A DNA stretch of 39,976 nt from an uncultured Thiotrichaceae bacterium (GTDB taxonomy: Bacteria; Pseudomonadota; Gammaproteobacteria; Thiotrichales; Thiotrichaceae): the NCBI GenBank assembly GCA_902727985.1, contig CACVAY010000036.1, forward strand, positions 1-39,976, given 5' to 3'. The position numbers and the translations under genes are program-made. Positions 1 through 39,976 of the stretch are shown piece after piece (positions within the stretch are counted from its first letter, which is position 1; each line of letters begins with the position of its first letter). The notes below the pieces were generated by a model, which was given only the letters and a program-made list of their open reading frames with translations, was not told the DNA's origin and searched no databases.

Positions 1-636
1 TACAGTGGTAGTTGATTTTTCATCTTCAGCGACCACTGGTGTTTCTGTTACTTTTACCTCTGTCTCAGCCGATGCCTCGACCTTTGAAGTAGGTTCTGCC
101 TCAGGCGCTTCAACTGACTCTACAGGGGTAGTTGATTTTTCATCTTCAGCAACCACTGGTGTTTCTGTTGCTTTTACCTCTGTCTCAGCTGATGCCTCGA
201 CCTTTGAAGTAGGTTCTGCCTCAGGCGCTTCAACTGACTCTACAGTGGTAGTTGATTTTTCATCTTCAGCAGCCACTGGTGTTTCTGTTGCTTTTACCTC
301 TGTCTCAGCTGATGCTTCGACACTAGCTGCTGACTCTGCCGCAGGCGCTTCAACTGACTCTACAGGGGCAGTTGGTTTTTCATCTTCAGCGACCACTGGT
401 GTTTCTGTTGCTTTTACCTCCGTCTCAGCTGATGCTTCGACCTTTGAAATAGCTTCTGCCTTAGGCTCTGCAACTGACTCGTCAGAAGCAGTCGGTTTTT
501 CATCTTCAACGACCGCAGACGTTTCTGTTTCTGTTGCTTTCACCCCAGTCTCAGCCGGTGCTTCGACCTTTGAAGTAGATTCTGCCGCAGGCGCTGCAAC
601 TGACTCTACAGGGGCAGTTGGTTTTTCATCTTCACC
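1..636 (-). repeat. 120-bp tandem coding repeats (five units plus a partial)
   Basis: Units start at 1, 121, 241, 361 and 481, with a partial unit from 607. The first four are exactly 120 bp. The fifth is 126 bp because a short TTTCTG-containing segment is duplicated. Adjacent units at the left edge are almost identical and units nearer the gene's 5' end are more diverged, which suggests recent expansion at the left side. Each unit is in frame and encodes 40 residues. The array may continue beyond the window. Confidence 0.9.
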
Positions 637-1236
637 CAATACTTCTTGAGCAAGTGCAACAGGCACCTCTACTGTAGCAGTTGGTTTTTCTGGCGCAGTT
701 AACATTAATTCTGGTTTTGCAATATCAACTTCTGGAGCTGCTGGAGATTCAGGAGCACTCATCAATGCTTGAGGCATTGGAGGCGGAGACAGGTCAACAT
801 TTTCACTTACAGGCGCTGTTGGAGCAGCTGGCATCTCAGGAGATGATTCCATGGCATTCTTATGAAACGGCCCAGGAGGAGCAGGAGCATCACCAGTAGA
901 TAAAGCCTTACTGCTCTCTTTCTGAGTCGAGTCTACGCTTTTCTCAGCTGCTACCATTTTAGATGCAGAACCTTCCTCCGTCACACTTGATGCGTCTACC
1001 TTCGCTTCTGCTTGTGCCTTTTCCTGCATTACCTCACCATTTGCCACTACAATATTAGCTGACCCTAGGTCTGCTGCAGTGTTTACCTGAGAGTTTTTCG
1101 CCTCTACTTTGGCATCAGCTTCAACCACATCCTTTTGATCTACATTCTGCGAGGACTTCCCGAGAAATGAAATTGCAAGTACAGTGATTAATGTTGCTCC
1201 AGCAATGATTGCCAGACCTTTTTGTATTGGTTTCAT
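1..1236 (-). CDS. Membrane-anchored repeat protein, C-terminus beyond window
   Basis: The minus-strand reading frame is open from the ATG at 1236 to the left edge (412 codons, no stop). It starts MKPIQKGLAIIAG, with one hydrophobic segment at about residues 7-26, so it is probably an inner-membrane anchor or uncleaved signal. Residues about 30-135 are rich in Ala, Glu, Lys and Ser. A Pro-rich stretch follows (APAPPGPFHKN, then LSPPPMPQ). From about residue 200 onward it consists of 40-residue tandem repeats rich in Glu, Ala, Thr, Pro and Val, with a recurring AEDEK(S/P)T turn. This looks like an extended periplasmic linker or stalk; any folded C-terminal domain lies outside the window. It follows the RND permease gene on the same strand, about 300 bases downstream, so co-transcription is possible but not shown. 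The family is not recognised. The Ser/Thr/Val-rich plus-strand frame over the same DNA is a shadow. Confidence 0.75.
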   Translation of the reverse strand, partial: MKPIQKGLAIIAGATLITVLAISFLGKSSQNVDQKDVVEADAKVEAKNSQVNTAADLGSANIVVANGEVMQEKAQAEAKVDASSVTEEGSASKMVAAEKSVDSTQKESSKALSTGDAPAPPGPFHKNAMESSPEMPAAPTAPVSENVDLSPPPMPQALMSAPESPAAPEVDIAKPELMLTAPEKPTATVEVPVALAQEVLGEDEKPTAPVESVAAPAAESTSKVEAPAETGVKATETETSAVVEDEKPTASDESVAEPKAEAISKVEASAETEVKATETPVVAEDEKPTAPVESVEAPAAESAASVEASAETEVKATETPVAAEDEKSTTTVESVEAPEAEPTSKVEASAETEVKATETPVVAEDEKSTTPVESVEAPEAEPTSKVEASAETEVKVTETPVVAEDEKSTTTV

Positions 1237-1543: not shown

Positions 1544-4500
1544 CTACAAATCTTTTTTGAGCCTAATGCCTCTACGCGCTTTATTTGCCTTAGCAGTTTT
1601 TTCAGCAACCTCACTCTTCTCCTTCTGCTCAACAATCTCTTTTTTAGCCTCGACGTCGTCGGCCTCAGGCTTGTCTTTTTGCTCTGCTTCAGCTTTTGGC
1701 TCCGCTTTAACCTCCGACTTTGGTTGCAACTCTTTATTTTTTCTAAAAAGCTTACTGATAATAAAGCCAAAAATACCTTTAATAGTAGTTAAGATCAAAG
1801 TACCAACCATTACGACGATACCAACGACCGTAGAGCCGATATCCATCACCTTTTCCATGAATGATTCTTCATACACATTCACTGGCTTAGGCTCATCTGG
1901 TTTGACCGCATCATCAATACCACCACAAGGTATAACATTACCATCTGCATCAACCATATCGGCACAAAGAGACTTTCCAGCACTGATACAACCAAGAGGA
2001 ATAACTAACAAGGTCAACAACGTCGAAACCAATCCACCAAAAATCAGCGATACAGCCATACCTTGGAAAATTGGATCATCAAGGATAACCATCGACCCAC
2101 CTATCAAGGCAAACGCGGTAATTGCAATAGGTCTTGTTCTCGCCTCACATGCATGGATAACGGCTTCGACTACAGTCATTCCCTTATTCATAACCGCCTC
2201 TCTTGAGAAATCCACTAGCAAGATAGAGTTCCGAACAATTATCCCCGCCAAGGCAATAAAACCAATCATGGATGTGGCTGAGAATTCTGCACCCAACAAC
2301 CAATGCCCTGGAACAATTCCAATCAAAGTCAATGGAATCGGAGCCATAACCACAGCAGGTAAAACGAAATTACCGAACTGCGCCACGATGAGCATATAAA
2401 TCAAAACAAGAGCTGCCATAAAGGCAATGCCCATATCACGGAAAGTTTCAAAGGTTACCGTCCATTCCCCTCCCCATTCAAAGAGTGATTGATTCGCACT
2501 ATGATCTGGGGCACTTAACCAGTAACCACCATTGATTACAACACCATCTGGTGCCTTATAGCCCTCACCATTATTTGCTGCGGCCATCAAATCCTGAACT
2601 TCAAACTGCCCATAAACAGGTGCCGCAAACTCACCCGTTGTCTCAGCAGTAACGAACTCTACTGGACGCAAGTCTTTATGGTAGATAGGTTTGTCTTGCT
2701 TTTCAGTATAAAAATTAACAAGCGCCGACAATGGAACACTATTGCCTCTAGGCCCCATCACAGGGAGCTGTGCTAATCTATCAATCTGAGAGCGCGCGCT
2801 TAATGGTACTTGCAACACAATAGGCAAGGGTTCAATAACGGCACCCTTCTTGATATCACCAAGAATGAAGCCGCCCATTGCCATTTCGATGGTACGATTA
2901 ATATCTTCCACCGAAATACCATTACGCTGTGCTTTATCAGCATCAACCTCAAAGCGTAAAACGTTATGATCAGCCTCAAGGAAATTATCCACATCTGTTA
3001 GGTTTTCAGCCTGTTCAAAGAAACCCGTCATGTCCTCAGCAAATTGACGCCTACTCGCAGGCGTAGGACCGTATATCTCAGCTACTACAGACTGCAACAC
3101 AGGAGGACCAGGCGGCATTTCAACCACCTGAATTTTCGCATTCACCGCCTCAGCAATGGGAGTGAGTACATGACGTACCGCCTCAGCAATTTCATGACTA
3201 CTTCTTTCACGATCATTTTTATGTGTCAGCTGTACCTGAATATCTCCCATCCAAGGCTTATCTCTCACATAGTAATGCCTGACGAGTCCATTAAAGTTGA
3301 ATGGTGAAGCAGTACCCGCATACGTCTGCAGAGCAATGACCTCTTCCACTTTTTGCAATTCAGTCGCAAGTGAATGGATCAAATTTGCAGTAACGGGCAA
3401 TGCTGTACCTTCAGGCAAATTTACCACCACGTTAAATTCAGGCTTATTATCCAACGGCAACATTTTTACCTTCACATATTTTGCGGGATAAAAAAGAAGA
3501 ATAGATAGGAAAAAGACAACAATAATCCCATATAGCAAGATTTTGCCTTTTCTCGGGTTACGAATTAATGGAATAATTAAACCGCGAAAGAACTTCTCAA
3601 TAAAGGCAGCCTGTTTATGCTCTTTTTCGGCAGACTCTTGTAGTGAACTCATGCTCGGTTTGAATTTATTCGTTAACCAAGGAGTAAATGCAAATGCTGC
3701 GAATAACGAGAACAACATTGCAACCGAACCCAAGATTGGGATTGGTGACATGTATGGCCCCATCATCCCACTCACAAAGCCCATTGGAAGCAATGCGGCA
3801 ATAACCGTAAACGTTGCTAATATTGTTGGATTACCAACCTCACGAACAGCGTCGACTGCGGTATCAATTTCGAGATCGTTCGCCAAGAGCCAACGACGGT
3901 ATATATTCTCAACAACAACAATCGCATCATCCACCAAGATGCCGATGGAAAAGATCAAAGCAAACAAACTTACACGATCAATGGTTAAGCCTAAGGCCCA
4001 TGCAGAAAATACAGTAACGGTGATAACAATAGGAATAACGATAAGCACAACACTAGATGCTCGCCAACCCAAGAATAAGAACACTAGTGCGGTAACAATG
4101 AGTGTGGCAATAACCAGCTTCTTGAGCAGACCGTTCACCTTCTCTTTTGCTGAGTTACCGTAATCACGAGTAATGGCAACATTCACATTATCAGGAACGA
4201 TCTGACCTTTTAGAGTTTCTACGCGCTTTAGAATACCTTCTGCAACTTCAACACCGTTAGAACCATGCTTCTTTGCAATCGCTAAAGTAACTGCGGCAGC
4301 ACCACTTGCAATCTCCTCGACCTCTGCATGATTACCCGTATAGTAACCGACGATTTTTGATGCATCGCTAGGCTGTAAGGTAACCTTTGCAACATCACGC
4401 ACATAAACTGGACGACCCTCGACAATTGCAACCATCAGTTGTTTAATATCGTCAGGCCCCTCCAAGAAAGAACCAGTAACAACATCAATAACATTACTTC

Positions 4501-5212
4501 CGGGTTCAAATGAACCCGCTTTTCTTTCCGAGTTAGCGAGGCGAATACTGTTTGCAACCTGACCTAAGGACACACCATAGGTTGCCAAACGCTCTGGAAG
4601 AATCTCTACACGAACCTGATCTTTACGACCATCAACAATGAAGCTTTGACTAGTATTTGCCTCTTCACGTAATTTTTGAAGAAGATCAAGAGCCAACAAG
4701 CGCAACTGCGCATCATCGACCTCATTTGACCAGAGTGTTAAGGTAACGACAGGCACATCATCAACCCCAACAGGTTTAGCCAAAACATTGGCTACCCCGG
4801 CAGGCATAGTGCTTTTATTGGCCTCCAGTTTATCCCGCAGTTTTACAATAGAGGACTCAAAATCCTCACCCACTTTGAACTGCACGGTAACCAAAGCCTG
4901 GCCACGAGATGACGCAGAGTACACATGCTTCACACCCGTGATCTCTTGCATTAAACCCTCTAGAGGGCGCGCAACCTGATCCTCTACTTCTTCTGAAGAT
5001 GCACCGGGGTATTGCACATAGATATCAACCATCGGCACAGAAATCTGTGGATCTTCCTGCCTTGGCGTGATTTGTAAGCCTAAAATACCTATACTAATGA
5101 AGGCTACGAGTAACAATAATGATAATGGGGAAACAATAAACGCCTTTGCTGTTTTACCCGCAAGACCTAGGTTTTTTGATAACTCCTGTGGAGCCTGATT
5201 CTCCTCACTCAT
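1544..5212 (-). CDS. RND-family efflux permease with C-terminal extension
   Basis: This is an inner-membrane proton-driven efflux pump subunit of the AcrB/HAE1-like RND superfamily. The first helix (about residues 27-47) is followed by a large periplasmic loop containing PGASSEEVEDQVARPLE. The proton-relay aspartates of helix 4 are visible as D428-D429 in GILVDDAIVVVEN. A second half with its own loop and helices ends in LIFGGLVSTLLTLLVIPLG. Usual family length is about 1020-1050 residues; this protein has 1222. The extra 148 residues (from about 1075) hold three cysteines, one more hydrophobic segment (about 1125-1155) and a highly charged Lys/Glu tail. The start ATG at 5212 has an AAGGAG ribosome site 5-6 bases upstream, overlapping the 12-base gap after the adaptor gene, so the two form an operon. 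Substrate is unknown. An outer-membrane TolC partner is not in the window. Confidence 0.9.
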   Translation of the reverse strand: MSEENQAPQELSKNLGLAGKTAKAFIVSPLSLLLLVAFISIGILGLQITPRQEDPQISVPMVDIYVQYPGASSEEVEDQVARPLEGLMQEITGVKHVYSASSRGQALVTVQFKVGEDFESSIVKLRDKLEANKSTMPAGVANVLAKPVGVDDVPVVTLTLWSNEVDDAQLRLLALDLLQKLREEANTSQSFIVDGRKDQVRVEILPERLATYGVSLGQVANSIRLANSERKAGSFEPGSNVIDVVTGSFLEGPDDIKQLMVAIVEGRPVYVRDVAKVTLQPSDASKIVGYYTGNHAEVEEIASGAAAVTLAIAKKHGSNGVEVAEGILKRVETLKGQIVPDNVNVAITRDYGNSAKEKVNGLLKKLVIATLIVTALVFLFLGWRASSVVLIVIPIVITVTVFSAWALGLTIDRVSLFALIFSIGILVDDAIVVVENIYRRWLLANDLEIDTAVDAVREVGNPTILATFTVIAALLPMGFVSGMMGPYMSPIPILGSVAMLFSLFAAFAFTPWLTNKFKPSMSSLQESAEKEHKQAAFIEKFFRGLIIPLIRNPRKGKILLYGIIVVFFLSILLFYPAKYVKVKMLPLDNKPEFNVVVNLPEGTALPVTANLIHSLATELQKVEEVIALQTYAGTASPFNFNGLVRHYYVRDKPWMGDIQVQLTHKNDRERSSHEIAEAVRHVLTPIAEAVNAKIQVVEMPPGPPVLQSVVAEIYGPTPASRRQFAEDMTGFFEQAENLTDVDNFLEADHNVLRFEVDADKAQRNGISVEDINRTIEMAMGGFILGDIKKGAVIEPLPIVLQVPLSARSQIDRLAQLPVMGPRGNSVPLSALVNFYTEKQDKPIYHKDLRPVEFVTAETTGEFAAPVYGQFEVQDLMAAANNGEGYKAPDGVVINGGYWLSAPDHSANQSLFEWGGEWTVTFETFRDMGIAFMAALVLIYMLIVAQFGNFVLPAVVMAPIPLTLIGIVPGHWLLGAEFSATSMIGFIALAGIIVRNSILLVDFSREAVMNKGMTVVEAVIHACEARTRPIAITAFALIGGSMVILDDPIFQGMAVSLIFGGLVSTLLTLLVIPLGCISAGKSLCADMVDADGNVIPCGGIDDAVKPDEPKPVNVYEESFMEKVMDIGSTVVGIVVMVGTLILTTIKGIFGFIISKLFRKNKELQPKSEVKAEPKAEAEQKDKPEADDVEAKKEIVEQKEKSEVAEKTAKANKARRGIRLKKDL

Positions 5213-6819: not shown

Positions 6820-7461
6820 CTAGTACCCAGAGACGGGAATAAGTCGCCTGATTTCTGAAAACCGAGCATGTTTAAGCGTTATCTCAATCGCCTTGGGGAT
6901 TTCCGAATTTCTGGATTCTTCTGTTTTCCACGAAGTTCCCCAGCGACTGTTATTCCCCAAAAACCGCCATTCAACAGACTCTACACCCGTCAAAAGCACC
7001 AAGGACTGAGGCTCCACAGAAGTTGTGTAGTCAACATGCTGCCAAGAGCTTCTTAATAAACTGCCCTCATCATCCAAACTATATCGAATACGCTGCAAAG
7101 AGCTTCTCAAGACTCCCGCAGGGTTCGGATAACCTCCGCGTGTAAATTCAATTAACACACTGGTATCTTGTCCCACTTCAAAAGCCTGTTTTCGTTGCCC
7201 AAGATCCGTATTGACCGCCCTTGGAACAATTTGCCGAAGATCCGCTTCAATCATTGTCATTGCACGCTGCAACTCTTCTAATTGAACGATTTGTTTCTCC
7301 ACCCCCGCACTTGTCGCGATAATGGTACGCAAACCACTGTAAGCCATAACCGCCAGTACTGCAAAAATCGCCATTGCGATGAGCAACTCAATCAGCGTAA
7401 AGCCTTTCACTCCAGACAATTTTGGGAGCAGAGCCTTGGAAAAATGAGGAGAAATAATCAT
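6820..7461 (-). CDS. gspJ: Type II secretion minor pseudopilin GspJ
   Basis: Minor pseudopilin of the type II secretion system, part of the tip complex (GspH-I-J-K) of the periplasmic pseudopilus. The prepilin peptidase site is G/FTLIELLIAMAIFAVLAVM, with cleavage after Gly20 and the conserved Glu at mature position 5. The body carries the GspJ signature of a long first helix followed by EELQRAMTMIEADLRQIVPR. Length 213 residues fits the family. It is the last gene of the gspG-H-I-J run, with a 67-base gap after gspI. GspK is missing downstream and the other gsp genes must be elsewhere. Confidence 0.88.
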   Translation of the reverse strand: MIISPHFSKALLPKLSGVKGFTLIELLIAMAIFAVLAVMAYSGLRTIIATSAGVEKQIVQLEELQRAMTMIEADLRQIVPRAVNTDLGQRKQAFEVGQDTSVLIEFTRGGYPNPAGVLRSSLQRIRYSLDDEGSLLRSSWQHVDYTTSVEPQSLVLLTGVESVEWRFLGNNSRWGTSWKTEESRNSEIPKAIEITLKHARFSEIRRLIPVSGY

Positions 7462-7528
7462 ATTAAACGACTGACTTGTGACGCCTGTATAAGCAAAAAA
7501 ATGGCCAAGCCTATGTAGCTATGCATAC

Positions 7529-7909
7529 TCATTTTGCTAAAAATCCCGTTAATGTAACACTTGGATTCTCTTGATCAGAGACTGTCGACCACACTGAAAC
7601 CTCAATTTTACGAACATTCTCATCAGCAGTATTCAGCGCTTTTTGCTCCCACTTCCACACAATACCAGCTAAAGTCTCATCACCATTACTTGTTCCTATA
7701 CTTGGCCAAGTACGCTCAATTTGTGCCTTTGCTATTTGATTCATAGCAACCCAACGGGCAAACGTCTTTTCACCGATCACCGTTTCATTTCTTGCAACAT
7801 TACCTACGGTATACGTCACTCCACCCAAGGAGATGGCAACTATAAGTAACGCTACCATGACTTCAATCAAGCTAAAACCCGCTGATCTCTTTAATTTATA
7901 AAGCATCAT
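7529..7909 (-). CDS. gspI: Type II secretion minor pseudopilin GspI
   Basis: Minor pseudopilin that with GspJ and GspK starts pseudopilus assembly. Cleavage site is SAG/FSLIEVMVALLIVAISLGG, with the conserved Glu at mature position 5. The following region (ARWVAMNQIAKAQIERTWPSIG) fits the GspI pattern of AxWVAxNQ. Length is 126 residues. The gene overlaps the end of gspH by 14 bases, indicating translational coupling. Confidence 0.88.
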   Translation of the reverse strand: MMLYKLKRSAGFSLIEVMVALLIVAISLGGVTYTVGNVARNETVIGEKTFARWVAMNQIAKAQIERTWPSIGTSNGDETLAGIVWKWEQKALNTADENVRKIEVSVWSTVSDQENPSVTLTGFLAK

Positions 7910-8925: not shown

Positions 8926-9507
8926 ATGGAATTGCGATCAATCCTCAGCCTGCCATGGCTGTTCACTATACTTCTTACCGCTTTGACGTTAACTGCCCTG
9001 CAATGGTTCCAAGAAGACTTATTATTTGAGCGCTCCCTGATCAATGAGGGAGAGTGGTGGCGTATCATAACAGGGAACTTTGTTCATAATAACTCTCCTC
9101 ATCTATACATGAACCTATTAGGCCTCGCCCTACTGGGTTTATTATTTAATGCGTATTTTCCCATCCGATGCTTCATTATCTCCACCATTATACTTTCGCT
9201 CCTGGTTGGCTTAGGGCTCTACTTCTATGCACCCAGGCTAGAGATGTACGTTGGTTTTTCTGGCGCTCTTTACGGCCTTTATCTCTTAGGAGCAGTCACT
9301 GCGCTCAAACATAAGGACATGATTACGGGCATTGGTATTTTCATCATCATCATCGGCAAATTGGTGTGGGATATCTTTGACCCTTCTCTTAATCAAAACA
9401 GCGCGGATCTGATTGAAATATCGATAGCCACTGAATCACATTGGCTGGGAGCAATTGGAGGTCTCATCATTGGCTTGTTCTACTTTTTTACCATGAAAAA
9501 TGATTAA
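8926..9507 (+). CDS. Rhomboid-family protease, rhombosortase-like
   Basis: Small polytopic intramembrane serine protease (193 residues, about six helices). The nucleophile motif GFSGALYG carries the catalytic Ser at about residue 113. A second-site His is in SHWLGAIGG near residue 173, and an HNNSPHLYMNLLG segment corresponds to the conserved HxxxN helix. Size and motif fit the rhombosortase subgroup, which trims the GlyGly-CTERM anchor of proteins exported by type II secretion. Its position directly divergent from gspG supports that role. No GlyGly-CTERM substrate was seen in this window. Its stop overlaps the comF start by 8 bases, so these two genes form an operon. Confidence 0.8.
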   Translation: MELRSILSLPWLFTILLTALTLTALQWFQEDLLFERSLINEGEWWRIITGNFVHNNSPHLYMNLLGLALLGLLFNAYFPIRCFIISTIILSLLVGLGLYFYAPRLEMYVGFSGALYGLYLLGAVTALKHKDMITGIGIFIIIIGKLVWDIFDPSLNQNSADLIEISIATESHWLGAIGGLIIGLFYFFTMKND

Positions 9508-10177
9508 GCTTCAAACACTACTTGAAGCAGAATGCGTTCTTTGCAAGAAAACAGCACACAGCAACCATCCTGCTCTTTGTACACACTGCAAAAACCTTCT
9601 TAACGCTTACCATTGCTGCCAACAATGCGGCAATACTCTTAAAGATGAAAATCTCAACATCTGTGGTAACTGCCAAACCACACCTCCCGCAGTTGATCAA
9701 ACTTTTTGCCTAAGCACTTATTCACCGACTGCCAGAGAACTCATCAAACAACTTAAATTCAACCAACAGCTACTCATCGCAGACAGTCTTGGAAAACTAT
9801 TGGCACAAGCTATTTACCACCAAAAAATACCATTACCTGATATCATTATCCCCGTTCCTATGCATAAAAAGCGCTTGCGTCAACGTGGTTTCAATCAAGC
9901 TCTACAAATTGCTAAGCCTGTTTCAAAACAACTATCCATTCACTTATCTAATTCGATTGCCTATCGCAGCATCTATACGCTCCCACAAACGCAGCTCAAT
10001 GCCAGCACTCGTCGCACTAATCCACAAGCCAGTTTTCATTGCAAAAAGATTTCTGGAGAACATATCGCCATTATCGACGATGTCATTACCACTGGCTCAA
10101 CTGTGAATACATTAGCAAAAATATTAAAAAAACAAGGGGCTTCGAGAGTTTCGGCTTGGGCAATTGCGCACGCGTAA
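9500..10177 (+). CDS. comF: ComF-family phosphoribosyltransferase-like protein
   Basis: ComF-type protein of 225 residues. The N-terminus carries cysteine pairs (CVLCKK, CTHCK, CCQQCG, CGNCQ) arranged as a zinc-ribbon-like module. The C-terminal half is a type I phosphoribosyltransferase fold with the PRPP-binding loop IAIIDDVITTGST near residues 190-202. Family members are implicated in natural transformation, taking incoming single-stranded DNA past the inner membrane, though the phosphoribosyl activity is not well defined. The start overlaps the previous gene by 8 bases. Confidence 0.88.
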   Translation: MIKLQTLLEAECVLCKKTAHSNHPALCTHCKNLLNAYHCCQQCGNTLKDENLNICGNCQTTPPAVDQTFCLSTYSPTARELIKQLKFNQQLLIADSLGKLLAQAIYHQKIPLPDIIIPVPMHKKRLRQRGFNQALQIAKPVSKQLSIHLSNSIAYRSIYTLPQTQLNASTRRTNPQASFHCKKISGEHIAIIDDVITTGSTVNTLAKILKKQGASRVSAWAIAHA

Positions 10178-34751: not shown

Positions 34752-34799
34752 CATTTTCAAACCCTGAAAATACTAACAAACCCCAAGGTGGGTATTTAT

Positions 34800-36008
34800 A
34801 TGTTTCGATTAAAAACACATATTGGAGAAAAGTATTCTCCTCTCTATTTTTTATCCGCACTAGGCGCAGGCGGCCTCGCGGTTTCATTTTTCATGTACTT
34901 GATGTTCATGACACCACACAAAGCCTACCCTATGGCGACGTGGAACTCGCTGGCGGAGATTTTCTCTGGCAATGATTTGGTTTTACAGGTTTTCTCTGTG
35001 GTAGCGATTCTGGGTATCGTGATTTTTTCCATCATGCATATTCATTTGCTAATCTGGAATATTCGCGAATATCGTGAGTATAAAAAAACCGATGCTTTCA
35101 CGAATCTCTTCAACTCGAATGCTGAAGTCCAATTGATGGCATTGCCACTGACTTTTGCCATGAGTGTCAATGTCGGCTTCATTCTGGGTGCCTTGTTCAT
35201 TCCAAATCTCTGGACGGTTGTGGAATACCTCTTCCCATTAGCACAGGTCGCATTTGGCATTATCGGCGTGTATGCCATCTTGATCTTTACCCGCTACTTC
35301 AGTCGAATTCTGATCACAGGCGGATTTGATTGCACCCGAAATAACAATCTTAGCCAAATGTTGGCGATTTTTGCTTTCTCGATGGTTGGCGTTGGCTTTT
35401 CTGCCTCAGCAGCGATGAGTCATAACACCACAACATCGGGAATTGGCTTGGTACTCTCGATTCTGTTTATCAGTACTGCGATTATTTTAGCCTTGATGAA
35501 ATTTGTGCTGGGTTTCAGAGCGATGTTTGAACACGGCATTGATCGTGAAAGTTCGGTATCTCTATGGATTATGATTCCTATCATCACCCTGATCGGCATC
35601 TCAATCTTCCGTTTATCCATGGCCATGCATCACAACTTCGGCGCGCATTTAGACCCCATTAGTAGTTTGGTTGTATTCGCATCGCTAGTCAGCGTACAGC
35701 TATTATTTGGCTTGCTCGGTTACATGGTGATGAAGCAGTTAAATTACTTTAAAGATTATGTGAAAGGGTCGGAAAGTAGCGCTGCATCATATGCGTTAAT
35801 TTGCCCAGGTGTGGCGAGCTATGTATTAGGTTTCTTCCTCATCCATCAAGGCTTTGTTGCATCTGGCTTATTGGTTCCATTCTCGCCAATATACGTACTG
35901 CTGATCATCCCGTTGATATATCTTCAGTACAAAACCATTTCAACCTTGTTTACCTTGAATGACAAGATGCTATTTGAGCGAACAACCAAAACTGATGTTA
36001 TCGCCTAA
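34800..36008 (+). CDS. Ten-helix membrane protein, SLAC1/TehA-like layout
   Basis: 402 residues from the ATG at 34800 (AAGGTGG ribosome site; a GTG at 34788 is less likely). Ten hydrophobic helices can be counted, the number found in the SLAC1/TehA anion-channel and C4-dicarboxylate family, but sequence identity to that family cannot be shown by eye. A Cys in YALICPGVASYVLGFF near the ninth helix may be functional. I have a weak recollection of similar proteins named TsoY, a (seleno)protein family, which should be checked. It shares its operator-like sequence with the peroxiredoxin gene, pointing to redox or sulfur stress. Confidence 0.7.
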   Translation: MFRLKTHIGEKYSPLYFLSALGAGGLAVSFFMYLMFMTPHKAYPMATWNSLAEIFSGNDLVLQVFSVVAILGIVIFSIMHIHLLIWNIREYREYKKTDAFTNLFNSNAEVQLMALPLTFAMSVNVGFILGALFIPNLWTVVEYLFPLAQVAFGIIGVYAILIFTRYFSRILITGGFDCTRNNNLSQMLAIFAFSMVGVGFSASAAMSHNTTTSGIGLVLSILFISTAIILALMKFVLGFRAMFEHGIDRESSVSLWIMIPIITLIGISIFRLSMAMHHNFGAHLDPISSLVVFASLVSVQLLFGLLGYMVMKQLNYFKDYVKGSESSAASYALICPGVASYVLGFFLIHQGFVASGLLVPFSPIYVLLIIPLIYLQYKTISTLFTLNDKMLFERTTKTDVIA

Positions 36009-36063: not shown

Positions 36064-36187
36064 ATTAGAAAATTTTCATTAACTTTACAGATATTTTAAC
36101 AGCTTAATTTAAAAATAATTTTCTACTAAGTGCAATGTTAAACTAGCTTTCGGAGTGTAAAATTCTACTGAATAAATAAAACGCAAA

Positions 36188-36433
36188 GCATTGATGTCAA
36201 CAATTCCCGCTCAATCCACTCTTAAGTTATTGATAAATAATAATTTTAGTGTAAAAATAGCACAGTATTTTTTTGTAATCACTTGATTAATAAAGAAAAA
36301 ATACAAAATTGTCTCATCGTAAAAAACTTTATTAATCAATAGCTTGCTGATACCAACTGTGCTATTTTTACTACATTGTCTTTTTTTATCAATAACTTAC
36401 CTATAAAACAAGCGGGAACTGCTGCATTGATGT
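36188..36433. mobile_element. MITE-like element: long imperfect inverted repeats, 10-bp direct flanks
   Basis: The direct repeat GCATTGATGT occurs at 36188-36197 and 36424-36433. Between them is a 226-bp segment with three sets of inverted arms. TTCCCGCT/AGCGGGAA is outermost. Next is TAAGTTATTGATAAA/TTTATCAATAACTTA with AAAAATAGCACAGT (36253-36266) and its inverse (36356-36369). Innermost is TTGATTAATAAAG/CTTTATTAATCAA. No reading frame is present. The structure fits a small non-autonomous transposable element with target duplication. It ends 10 bases past the radical SAM stop codon. A regulatory or replication hairpin is an alternative. Confidence 0.6.
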
Positions 36434-36442
36434 TATTATCAA

Positions 36443-37219
36443 TTAAATAACTGTTACTAACTTATCCATTTTACCTATGTCCTTTATTGATGTTTTAACT
36501 TCTAGTTTGGATCTAATGCCTTCTGCCCCTATAAACAATGTTCTCTCACGATCATGTGAAACATCACATCTTTTTAAAAATAACCGATGGCTACTATTTA
36601 CATGTTTAAAACCATTACATCGATATTTAAAGTATCCATTTTTGTTCCAATCAACATCATCTAAACCAATATTATTTATATTACCAAACTCCTCAATTAT
36701 TTTACAATCAAGGGACATTTTTCTAGCGCTTTCTATGAATTCAACTGTCTTTGTTTGATTAATAAGAGGGTGATTCACAATTAACTTTACAGGATATTTT
36801 TTTGCCAAATTAATGCTATTAATAATATTTTCTAGGGGGATGCCCATGCTCTTTAGTTGTTCATCATGATTAAATGAATCTAAATGTATTTTCAACTCAT
36901 CTAAGTATGGAAGTACAGGCTCTAATAAGTCGGTATGTCCAATATGAGATGCCATTGATACGTATATGCTTTTTGATTTTAAAAATTTTGCAATATCCTT
37001 TACTTGTTTGTTTAGTGTTGGCTCTCCACCACTAAGAATGACCTCATCAGGCAAGTTGTTCTTAGATTCTAGTTTTCCAAAAATTTCTTTTATATATTCT
37101 AGTGTCAGTAAGTTTGCTGATTTAGTTTGACCTTCATTATGACAGTAACTACACTTTGCAGTACATTTTCCTGTTAAAAGGAGTCGTATCTTAAAACAGC
37201 GTTCTAATTTTTCTTTCAT
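36443..37219 (-). CDS. Radical SAM protein, MoaA-like, accessory
   Basis: 258 residues. The 4Fe-4S/SAM motif is C19-x3-C23-x2-C26 (GKCTAKCSYCHNEG). The SAM-binding GGEP lies at about 64-67 (EVILSGGEPTLN), and a LKIHLDSFNHDE strand resembles MoaA-type barrels. Two C-terminal Cys (RCNGF, KRCDVS) could hold a partial auxiliary cluster, but there is no full SPASM set. The substrate is unknown. AT-rich sequence and the position directly behind an attC-like site suggest it is a second integron cassette. A prokaryotic viperin was considered: the CxxxCxxC context and missing viperin motifs argue against it. Confidence 0.8.
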   Translation of the reverse strand: MKEKLERCFKIRLLLTGKCTAKCSYCHNEGQTKSANLLTLEYIKEIFGKLESKNNLPDEVILSGGEPTLNKQVKDIAKFLKSKSIYVSMASHIGHTDLLEPVLPYLDELKIHLDSFNHDEQLKSMGIPLENIINSINLAKKYPVKLIVNHPLINQTKTVEFIESARKMSLDCKIIEEFGNINNIGLDDVDWNKNGYFKYRCNGFKHVNSSHRLFLKRCDVSHDRERTLFIGAEGIRSKLEVKTSIKDIGKMDKLVTVI

Positions 37220-37300: not shown

Positions 37301-37415
37301 GCCTAACACTTTACTCAGTTGACCATAAGTCAGAAAAGCTTTTGTACGATAATAAATGTTAGCGAATACAAAAAAGACGGACTGAGTTTGTGGTAACTGA
37401 ATTTTCTTGTTAGGC
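37301..37415 (-). other. attC-like integron recombination site
   Basis: 115 bp bounded on the minus strand by GCCTAAC (37415-37409, form RYYYAAC) and GTTAGGC (37307-37301, form GTTRRRY). Inside are imperfect complementary arms (TTCAGTTACCACAAACTCAG against CTGACTTATGGTCAACTGAG) and a further inner stem TTTTGTA/TACAAAA, so the strand can fold into one long hairpin. Length is close to that of Vibrio-type attC sites. It begins 6 bases after the stop of the second GTPase gene, as expected in a cassette. Confidence 0.75.
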
Positions 37416-37421
37416 TTAGCG

Positions 37422-38117
37422 CTATGCTGGTATCGCAACTTTAAGATTTCTTTTCTTATTTGGAATATTATCAATAATAAAGTCTAGTAATTTATGTAAA
37501 TTGTAGCCATATTCTGCAGAATAGTAGATTGGTTTAATAATATTAACACCTGTAGCTTCTCTAACTCTTTTTTGTATTGATAAAGCCTTGTCATCTAGAA
37601 ACTTAAGTAATTTCTCCTCTGGCTCTTTCTTTTTAGAATTCCAGTTCCTTCCTTTCATCGCAACATCCGCTTGATTAATTGCTACAAGTATCCTACTTTT
37701 TTGAAAGTTTGGAACTATAACTTCATTTAGTAGCTTATAAGTAGTCCCCATATCTCTATTTGAACCCTCTATAATTACCAATACTATATCTATAAAGCCA
37801 TATTTTATATCTTTACTACTATAGCTCTTATAAAGAAGACTAATAATTTTCTTTGAGTGCTGTTTATCTTTTGAAATCCCATCTCCTAAACCGGGAGTAT
37901 CCCAAAATCGTAAAGAGTCATTTAAACTATAACTAGATAACTCCATAGTTTCCGGCTCTACACCTTTACCGACTGTTGCAATATCTTTTTCAAATAAAGT
38001 ATTTAGTGTTGTAGATTTTCCAGCACCAGTAACACCTGTAACCATTATATCTAATGGGCTAATTTCCATGCTATTCATTTTATTATAAACATCTAGAATT
38101 CGATATGTTTTATACAT
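37422..38117 (-). CDS. Second GTPase of the pair (TRAFAC class, YfjP/HSR1-like)
   Basis: 231 residues. Motifs: G1 GVTGAGKST, G3 DTPGLGDG and G4 NQAD. The rest aligns closely with the neighbouring GTPase (RDMGTTYKLLNEVIVPNFQ, INQADVAMKGRNW, RVREATGVNI, PIYYSAEYGYNLHKLLDFIIDNIP). It lacks the long C-terminal extension of its partner. Its ATG lies 6 bases after the partner's stop, so both are translated from one message. The attC-like site follows directly. Function unknown; duplication and divergence suggest a heteromeric pair. Confidence 0.82.
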   Translation of the reverse strand: MYKTYRILDVYNKMNSMEISPLDIMVTGVTGAGKSTTLNTLFEKDIATVGKGVEPETMELSSYSLNDSLRFWDTPGLGDGISKDKQHSKKIISLLYKSYSSKDIKYGFIDIVLVIIEGSNRDMGTTYKLLNEVIVPNFQKSRILVAINQADVAMKGRNWNSKKKEPEEKLLKFLDDKALSIQKRVREATGVNIIKPIYYSAEYGYNLHKLLDFIIDNIPNKKRNLKVAIPA

Positions 38118-38123
38118 TATATA

Positions 38124-39116
38124 TTACCACCTAAAAAGACTACTAAGAGCACCACCAATGGCACCGACAACACCACCAACAACTTTGCCAACAGTCTCTC
38201 CTGTTTTTCCAAAAATACTACCTATGTCACCTCCAATTTCGGCCCCCTTAGATGCTGTTGCTTTTACTGACTCAATAAACGATTTTTTAATTTCCTTATT
38301 GTAATCAATTATTTCATCATCATCCTTCCACATATCTTCATCTTTAGATGCTGTATCAACAAATGCTAGACGTTTTTCAACTGGTATATTTTTTACAATA
38401 AAATATAGCAACTTTGTAAGATTGTACGGCCTTTGATCTTCATCATCATCTTTGTAACCAGCTGAATAATAAATTGGTTCAATATCAACTCCAGTGGCTT
38501 CTTTTACTCTCAATTTTACTGACTTTACCTTTTCTTCAAGAAATTCAGCCAGTTTTCTTTCTGGTTTATTATTATCATAATCCCAATACCTACCTTTCAT
38601 AGCCACATCAGCTTGATTGATTGCTATAATAATTCTTTTTCCAGGATTTTCTCCTAAGTTAGGAATAATAACTTTATTTATTAGCTCATAGGAAGTTCCC
38701 AAGTCTCTACTTCCACCATCAAGTATGACTAAGACTAAGTCAATTAAGGAGTTACCTTTATTGTCAATCTCATTTAGTTTCTCAATTATTTTTTTAGAGT
38801 GTTTAATGTCTTTTTCTTTTCCATCCCCTAGACCAGGGCTATCCCAGAGTACAAGATTTTTTAAATTAAACTTGGAAATACTCATTGTTTCTGGGTCAAC
38901 ACCAACTCCTACTTTTGCAACCTCCATATCAAATAAAGCATTGATTGTTGAGCTTTTACCACACCCTGTTGCCCCTGTAATCATAAGATTAACTTCTTGA
39001 TCCTTAAGCTCTAATATATTATCAAACATTTTCTTTTTAGCTGTGTCATCAAGATTAGATGATTCGACATCATTAACCATGTTTTCATATATGGTCTGCT
39101 TACTTTTTTCTTTCAT
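38124..39116 (-). CDS. First GTPase of the pair, with Gly-rich hydrophobic C-terminus
   Basis: 330 residues. G1 GATGCGKSS (Lys54), G3 DSPGLGDG and G4 NQAD place it among YeeP/YfjP-like GTPases of the Era/HSR1 type. After the G domain (about 40-255) comes an acidic segment (DEDMWKDDDEIIDYNKE). The last 45 residues are glycine-zipper-like (GGDIGSIFGKTGETVGKVVGG, then VVGAIGGALSSLF), which suggests membrane insertion, as in GTPases that act on membranes. An AGAAG ribosome site precedes the ATG. It is the first gene of the cassette. Confidence 0.82.
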   Translation of the reverse strand: MKEKSKQTIYENMVNDVESSNLDDTAKKKMFDNILELKDQEVNLMITGATGCGKSSTINALFDMEVAKVGVGVDPETMSISKFNLKNLVLWDSPGLGDGKEKDIKHSKKIIEKLNEIDNKGNSLIDLVLVILDGGSRDLGTSYELINKVIIPNLGENPGKRIIIAINQADVAMKGRYWDYDNNKPERKLAEFLEEKVKSVKLRVKEATGVDIEPIYYSAGYKDDDEDQRPYNLTKLLYFIVKNIPVEKRLAFVDTASKDEDMWKDDDEIIDYNKEIKKSFIESVKATASKGAEIGGDIGSIFGKTGETVGKVVGGVVGAIGGALSSLFRW

Positions 39117-39149
39117 TTTTATCTTCTTATTTTTATAATTTAGGGATTA

Positions 39150-39178
39150 AGCATAAATCAGATAATTCTGCTAAACAA
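39150..39178 (-). promoter_or_regulatory. Possible cassette promoter
   Basis: On the minus strand TTGTTT (39173-39178), a 17-base spacer and TATGCT (39150-39155), 34 bases before the first GTPase ATG. Each box matches consensus at four of six positions. Confidence 0.35.
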
Positions 39179-39203
39179 TAGAAATGTGATTACTGGTTTA
39201 GTT

Positions 39204-39210
39204 GCCTAAC
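39204..39210 (-). other. Integron core site GTTAGGC at the cassette start
   Basis: The same heptamer as the downstream attC core, continued by AA in both cases, located 87 bases before the first GTPase ATG. The flanking right side (to about 39280) shows no clear inverse core, so attI or a decayed attC are both possible. Confidence 0.5.
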
Positions 39211-39361: not shown

Positions 39362-39625
39362 TTACAGTGCTATTTTTTCATAGCCGACAGATAAATAATA
39401 ACCCAAGCTTGAGGGTATTCTTTTTCGATTATAAAAGTGTTGAATGTAGTCAGCAATTTTATCGCGTAGTTTCCAAAGGTCAGTGAATTTACAGTCCTGA
39501 ATTAAATTACTTTTTAAAGGATGGAAAAAATACGCCATCTCAGCGTTATCAGTACATCTTCCAAGATGATTGGTGCTCGCAATAATATCGCATTTATTCG
39601 ACAGGGTTTTAATTGCATGAGCCTA
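39362..39625 (-). pseudogene. Decayed IS3-family transposase (OrfB C-terminus)
   Basis: The minus-strand frame, open from about 39625 to the stop at 39362, reads HLGRCTDNAEMAYFFHPLK, then KLRDKIADYIQHFYNRKRIPSSLGY and ends GYEKIAL. This is the end of an IS3-type DDE integrase domain (compare GxCxDNAxxExFFxxLK and YIxxYNxxRxHxxLGY). A stop lies just upstream, most of OrfB is missing and the DDE glutamate position (DNAxxE) reads Ala, so it is inactive. It lies on the flank of the cassette region. Confidence 0.75.
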
Positions 39626-39855: not shown

Positions 39856-39976
39856 TTAATGCTCAGGCTGGCAAATCCCTTTCTTGCGAATGGCAATAGT
39901 CGTTTTAACAATCAGCACAGCAAGTACAAAAGTCAATAAGGCGAGCAATCCGCTGGCGATATACAGATAAAATGGA
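39856..39976 (-). CDS. C-terminal end of a membrane protein (partial)
   Basis: The minus-strand frame is open from the right edge to a TAA at 39856-39858. It reads FYLYIASGLLALLTFVLAVL, then IVKTTIAIRKKGICQPEH. One hydrophobic helix is followed by a short basic tail, so this is the end of an integral membrane protein whose body is outside the window. Family cannot be told. Confidence 0.55.
   Translation of the reverse strand, partial: PFYLYIASGLLALLTFVLAVLIVKTTIAIRKKGICQPEH

Follow-up and report, generated by a model that had tools for sequence, protein, structure and literature searches.

Near one end of a contig from an uncultured Thiotrichaceae bacterium, two diverged GTPase genes lie in tandem between two copies of the core sequence GTTAGGC. 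This arrangement raises two questions: whether the pair is carried as an integron cassette, and what a cassette of two GTPases would do for its host. The window analysed here is the whole contig (C36, 39,976 bp), from a 3.54-Mb genome assembled in 152 contigs.

Cassette layout and the attC-like hairpin

Reading the minus strand from 39204 downwards, the order is a GTTAGGC core, GTPase gene A, 6 nt, GTPase gene B, a further 6 nt, a hairpin, a radical SAM ORF and a MITE-like palindrome (Table 1). The ORF coordinates and gaps agree with the first-pass annotation, which had described two GTPase genes 6 nt apart and flanked by two GTTAGGC cores. The G+C content of the GTPase and radical SAM DNA is 30–32%, compared with 42.5% in the remaining window. 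Elsewhere in the window (1–1236 and 1544–5212), a protein made of long acidic near-repeats (VEAPEAEPTSKVEASAETEVKATETPVVAEDEKS) is encoded downstream of an RND-type transporter with a highly charged C-terminal tail.

Table 1. Features of the cassette region, in window coordinates.
Feature	Position	Strand	Size	Description
MITE-like palindrome	36185..36440	(.)	230 bp	At 3′ end of radical SAM ORF; fold z −6.3
Radical SAM ORF	36443..37219	(−)	258 aa	Adjoins cassette; AT-rich like the GTPase genes
attC-like site	37301..37415	(−), cassette top strand	115 nt	Starts 6 nt past B stop
GTPase B	37422..38117	(−)	231 aa	G domain only; G1 GVTGAGKS, G3 DTPG, G4 NQAD, G5 SAE
A–B intergenic gap	38118–38123		6 nt	
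GTPase A	38124..39116	(−)	330 aa	N-terminal helices, complete G domain, W..DD...Y motif, C-terminal glycine zipper; G1 GATGCGKS, G3 DSPG, G4 NQAD, G5 SAG
Upstream core GTTAGGC	39204..39210	(−)		5′ boundary of cassette; without palindromic partner
Remnant (LRDKIADYIQHFYNRKRIPSSLGY)	39362..39538	(−)		Upstream of cassette; resembles the C-terminus of what we take to be an IS3-type transposase

GTTAGGC or its complement GCCTAAC occurs at positions 37301, 37409 and 39204 of the window. The hairpin is composed of R″ (GCCTAAC), an unpaired spacer, an L box with one extrahelical base, a variable terminal structure and R′ (GTTAGGC). Its R″ and R′ core sites are exactly complementary over a site of 115 nt, and the folded bottom strand displays the spacer, L box and extrahelical base, the attC criteria applied to this fold being those stated in PMC12901181. 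As DNA, the bottom (+) strand folds with a z of −4.1 and the top strand with a z of −3.0. Among 5000 dinucleotide shuffles that left the R boxes in place, 2 equalled the hairpin in energy and pair count together (taken singly, its energy was reached in 56 and its pair count in 95), and it is the sole RYYYAAC/GTTRRRY hairpin in the 40-kb window. The complementary R boxes, spacer and extrahelical base thus bear out the attC-like hairpin that had been proposed just past the stop codon of B. At the other boundary, the 129-nt stretch at the core at 39204 folds with a z of −1.1; a core of this kind, without a palindromic partner, would be expected of a broken attC or of a 5′ junction of the attI or attG type.

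Further attC sites were sought with a descriptor rather than a covariance model, because arrays near intI in relatives yielded no attC. The scan, in which attCs from class 1 integrons and Thiodictyon served as positives, gave 26 forward matches (a count that includes the positives and duplicate loci) versus 10 in the reversed-sequence control (1.8 Mb). The window's genome yielded no further attC with a GTTAGGC core, Rfam returned 0 matches above the gathering score, and a search of plasmids for the hairpin gave no match.

Three other copies of the pair have cassette-like surroundings. At a Nitrosomonadales locus (L044), a canonical attC (341–430) ends about 40 nt 5′ of A; in this copy A carries a frameshift, B is truncated, and another short attC-like hairpin comes next. 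At a Methylococcaceae locus (L045), GTTAGGC lies 12 nt 5′ of the ATG of A, with an attC 1.1 kb upstream. These two loci are independent cassette-like placements of the pair. In a third genome, from a gammaproteobacterium (G137), the hairpin just 3′ of B can be aligned with that of the window along 63 nt, at a score of 46 compared with 26 for the best of 2000 shuffles; a search of this genome for intI found none above threshold. Direct repeats of about 190 bp bracket the pair and hairpin in G137 (L191, reverse strand, ~7380–7540 and ~9360–9530).

The G137 hairpin also bears on a different reading of the site, namely a conserved 3′ operon hairpin, such as a terminator or repeat, whose GTTAGGC cores arose by chance. 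We retain this rival because the R′ box of the homologous G137 hairpin is off consensus; the absence of an array, and a scan of 63 family genomes that found no others with GTTAGGC-core attCs, would also fit. Nevertheless, such a hairpin appears improbable in view of the exact 7-bp R boxes, spacer and extrahelical base in the window and of the GTTAGGC present 5′ of A in both L044 and L045, each with canonical attC sites beside it. Hairpin fold, R boxes and the cassette-like copies in L044, L045 and G137 together uphold the description of a two-gene cassette bearing an attC-like site.

The adjoining radical SAM ORF is possibly a second cassette without an attC of its own. It matches the prokaryotic viperin model pVip with an E-value of 2.6e-11; membership of the viperins was ruled out by score (NF038283, 38 bits against a cut-off of 180), and direct comparison with the viperin of locus L088 was not significant. 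The MITE-like palindrome that follows has CAGCARTTCCCGCT ends and a 9-bp duplicated target (ACATCAATG) on both sides, and a second copy, 94% identical and with its own TTCAAATAC repeat, lies at C146:58273-58499.

Position relative to the integron integrase

The first-pass annotation had looked to an intI gene beyond position 39,976. Instead, the right end of the window runs into a different contig: the last 127 bp of C36 exactly match the start of C88, and the next gene on C88 encodes a transporter that presumably belongs to the TehA/SLAC1-like family. No intI is present on the joined contigs. The integron integrase of the genome (436 bits) is encoded on another contig, C105, and an intI–attI platform joining C36 to C105 was ruled out by the exact C36/C88 overlap and by the first 300 bases of C105, which match nothing else in the genome.

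The C105 gene (L014, 3–1316) encodes an integron integrase with an N-terminal extension of ~120 aa, is cut by the contig start and lies beside rnr; similar long IntI proteins (about 430–520 aa) recur in many genomes of the family. A scan of fetched stretches beside long IntI genes in family genomes revealed no convincing attC.

An ordinary integron array is therefore not what the assembly contains: there is one attC, the joined contigs lack intI, and the genome's intI is on a separate contig, so that no array sits beside an intI or attI. Because C36 joins C88 and not the contig carrying intI, the pair is a lone cassette without an integron platform, an orphan with a single attC that lies in the chromosome away from any intI. 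An empty-site comparison found the flanking gene (34788–36008) absent from the five other genomes of the genus, and only one of six further genomes searched contained it.

A and B as paired paralogues

The two proteins are 51% identical and both retain the G1–G5 motifs (GxTGxGKS, ETM, DxPG, NQAD, SA), with (L/F)WDSPGLGD or WDTPGLGD at Walker B/G3 in most of 64 aligned rows. The sequence upholds both the glycine zipper ascribed to the C-terminus of A (GxxxG repeats, residues 291–325) and the description of B as a G domain only; the zipper recurs in most homologues of A and is missing from B. C-terminal fusion forms of A, about 450 aa long, also exist.

AlphaFold models reached a mean pLDDT of 79.6 for A and 90.1 for B. 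The best Foldseek matches of A were immunity-related GTPases (IRGs; E 1e-7), followed by LeoA, Toc34 and GIMAP, and those of B were Toc34, IRG, GIMAP and Era. With respect to the helical domain of the IRG family, A gives IRG fold matches and its C-terminal 39 residues, the glycine-zipper part, fall below a pLDDT of 50; insertion of A into a membrane is thus proposed from sequence. When A was re-aligned (VIA), EngB scored level with IRGs over the G domain alone, and the alignments spanned 239–262 residues for IRGs versus about 167 for EngB. The G domain by itself also gives fold matches to Era and EngB. In Pfam both proteins hit generic GTPase domains, neither reaches any NCBIfam family cut-off, and PADLOC 2.0.0 gave no full-length model match for either, with partial G-domain matches only. 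PHROG 16468 (function unknown) spans A end to end; phage records searched with A gave no match.

The search for homologues of A and B covered 84,980 species genomes plus plasmids, and 76 loci were analysed among the matches listed. A is followed directly by B at 43 of these 76 loci, mostly with gaps of −41 to +64 nt, and the carriers among the matches listed belong to Pseudomonadota, Bacillota, Bacteroidota, Spirochaetota and Synergistota. A phylogeny built from 32 proteins of each type resolves A and B as reciprocally monophyletic clades with 100/100 support, which points to one ancient duplication followed by joint inheritance. The A and B distance matrices correlate with r 0.74, a value to which shared descent of the carriers also contributes and that 0 of 5000 permutations attained. 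A and B are thus paralogues of ancient origin and travel as a pair.

Few genomes carry the pair, and its distribution is patchy. Under stringent search settings, two of 369 genomes in the class contained it (the window's own genome and G137), and a set of 57 relatives gave only weak partial matches outside the window's own genome. Copies exist on plasmids, including one small plasmid with RelE/ParE genes beside the pair. The majority of pair copies at the loci analysed, among the matches listed, show no attC. The first-pass annotation had counted against itself a spread of homologues outside integrons in housekeeping contexts; most copies do lie outside integrons, but their contexts are not housekeeping.

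Several variations on the pair were observed. A third GTPase gene (about 315 aa) lies directly 3′ of A–B at L025, L026, L033, L038, L041, L050 and L091, which are several Bacillota and similar loci, and A has an extra region of about 110–120 aa at L033, L035, L038, L050 and L091. A-type proteins are also found without B; such loci (L056–L073 and L090) are often near WYL-domain regulators or island genes and form a separate branch.

Genomic context and proposed function

Neighbouring genes were compared with PADLOC models, using 88 genes, mostly immediate neighbours of A–B, and a control of 84 arbitrarily chosen genes from the same genomes. In this small comparison, 7 of 88 neighbours and 0 of 84 controls matched pVip (viperin) at 1e-8 (one-sided Fisher p ~0.008). 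Distinct models matched numbered 255 for neighbours versus 17 for controls, a measure that is inflated because many models overlap. Viperins at L027, L031, L088 and L089 score above the NCBIfam cut-off, as does a ring nuclease Csm6 at the Aliivibrio locus L021 above its curated cut-off; L018 carries csm6, cas1 and cas2, and CARF genes are among the immediate neighbours of the pair. The pair lies among type I restriction genes in L019, which also has PDC-S26, and in L021; at L049 such genes flank a related locus with A only. The gene row at L031 is viperin, A, B and kinase/TPR, and L027 has the same row plus a second radical SAM gene.

Neighbours at L022, L035 and L052 are ordinary. That some loci lack defence neighbours, and that the G domain is near the Era and EngB folds, would suit a pair of GTPases for stress or envelope maintenance, associated with ribosomes or membranes, that spread horizontally and has no immune role. 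We regard this reading as unlikely, since the distribution is very patchy and carriage mobile, defence genes recur as neighbours, and the best whole-model matches of A are immunity GTPases.

No named family or defence-database system was found for the A–B pair, nor any paper describing it in the open literature, and no open-access text links viperin or integron cassettes to it. Several known systems resemble it in part. YfjP/YeeP-type GTPases of E. coli islands, which we take to be like the A-only relatives beside radC/AlpA island genes (L020, L055, L069), differ in that the B partner is absent there. IRGs (Irga6, Irgb10, GM4951) cover most of the A model as its top fold matches (VIA Z 15–17), yet they are eukaryotic, are 14–19% identical to A and lack an obligate G-domain-only partner gene. 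Likewise, Toc33/34 and GIMAP GTPases, the top fold matches of B, are eukaryotic membrane receptors with about 18% identity to it. Eleos (LeoA/LeoBC) is a multi-gene bacterial antiphage system with membrane-type GTPases whose G domains weakly resemble those of the pair (E 9.6e-13 for LeoBC against B and 2.9e-10 for LeoA against A); however, the Leo models of 559–601 positions are matched in their G-domain part only, and no dynamin stalk is seen in A or B. Eleos membership was ruled out, as full-length LeoA/LeoBC homology is absent and the PADLOC match is to part of the G domain. Also similar in organization are the DO-GTPase/GAP1 conflict systems, paired paralogous GTPases that are predicted to dimerize (Kaur, 2020; PMC7159879). 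What defines DO-GTPases is a glutamate in Walker B together with the partner GAP1 (PMC7159879), whereas the Walker B/G3 motif in most of the 64 aligned rows of A and B does not show the conserved glutamate; neither matches the DO-GTPase Pfam model, and GAP1 is outside the top 25 neighbour families.

The nearest rival to an immune role is a selfish or stabilising toxin–antitoxin-like module, in which A would be membrane-toxic, B would restrain it, and the pair would persist by addiction or plasmid maintenance. A two-gene operon with an obligate partner, a membrane-seeking tail on A only, and plasmid copies such as the one beside RelE/ParE genes would all be expected of it. Both partners, however, retain full catalytic motifs, unlike a typical antitoxin, and adjacency to viperin, CARF and restriction genes is repeated; on balance we think such a module unlikely, although the two readings overlap, many defence systems being toxin–antitoxin-like.

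Because the two-gene set recurs in distant bacteria beside known antiviral genes, we think it probable that it forms a bacterial immune module not recognised before. Several features suggest a heteromeric GTPase immune module: the partners are obligate, both GTP sites are intact, one subunit alone has a membrane-type tail, carriage is mobile and patchy, and antiviral genes lie nearby. Judged from its context, we consider it reasonably likely that A and B are the two subunits of a GTPase module with the behaviour of a mobile immune system, probably acting on membranes. The heteromeric GTPase defence system suggested at the outset thereby gains support from neighbours, obligate pairing and fold, from which its putative function is inferred.

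According to the proposed model, A and B would pair via their G domains, as Toc33/34, Gtr1/Gtr2, immunity-related GTPases and GIMAP proteins do, and B would control which nucleotide state A adopts. In response to a cue, either derived from the phage or a nucleotide, A would be released, and its C-terminal helices would insert into or remodel the inner membrane, thereby stopping phage production or the infected cell. The module would have moved as an integron cassette and now persist as a single-attC cassette in the chromosome. Radical SAM genes beside the pair (viperins at L027, L031 and L088, MoaA/viperin-like genes at L018 and L065, and the small radical SAM ORF beside the window cassette) suggest a more specific and distinctly doubtful version: these enzymes would modify GTP or another NTP, and the A–B heterodimer would be the sensor–effector arm of a nucleotide-analogue immune pathway, reading the modified nucleotide and releasing the membrane tail of A.

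On our best reading, in which the defence role is taken from context, the A–B pair is a previously undescribed form of GTPase-based bacterial immunity. If this is true, a widely spread two-GTPase module with folds like those of animal immunity-related GTPases and GIMAPs would join bacterial immunity, and the locus would be an example of an integron cassette moving a complete two-gene GTPase system. The repeated linkage to viperin makes a nucleotide-sensing GTPase mechanism directly testable.
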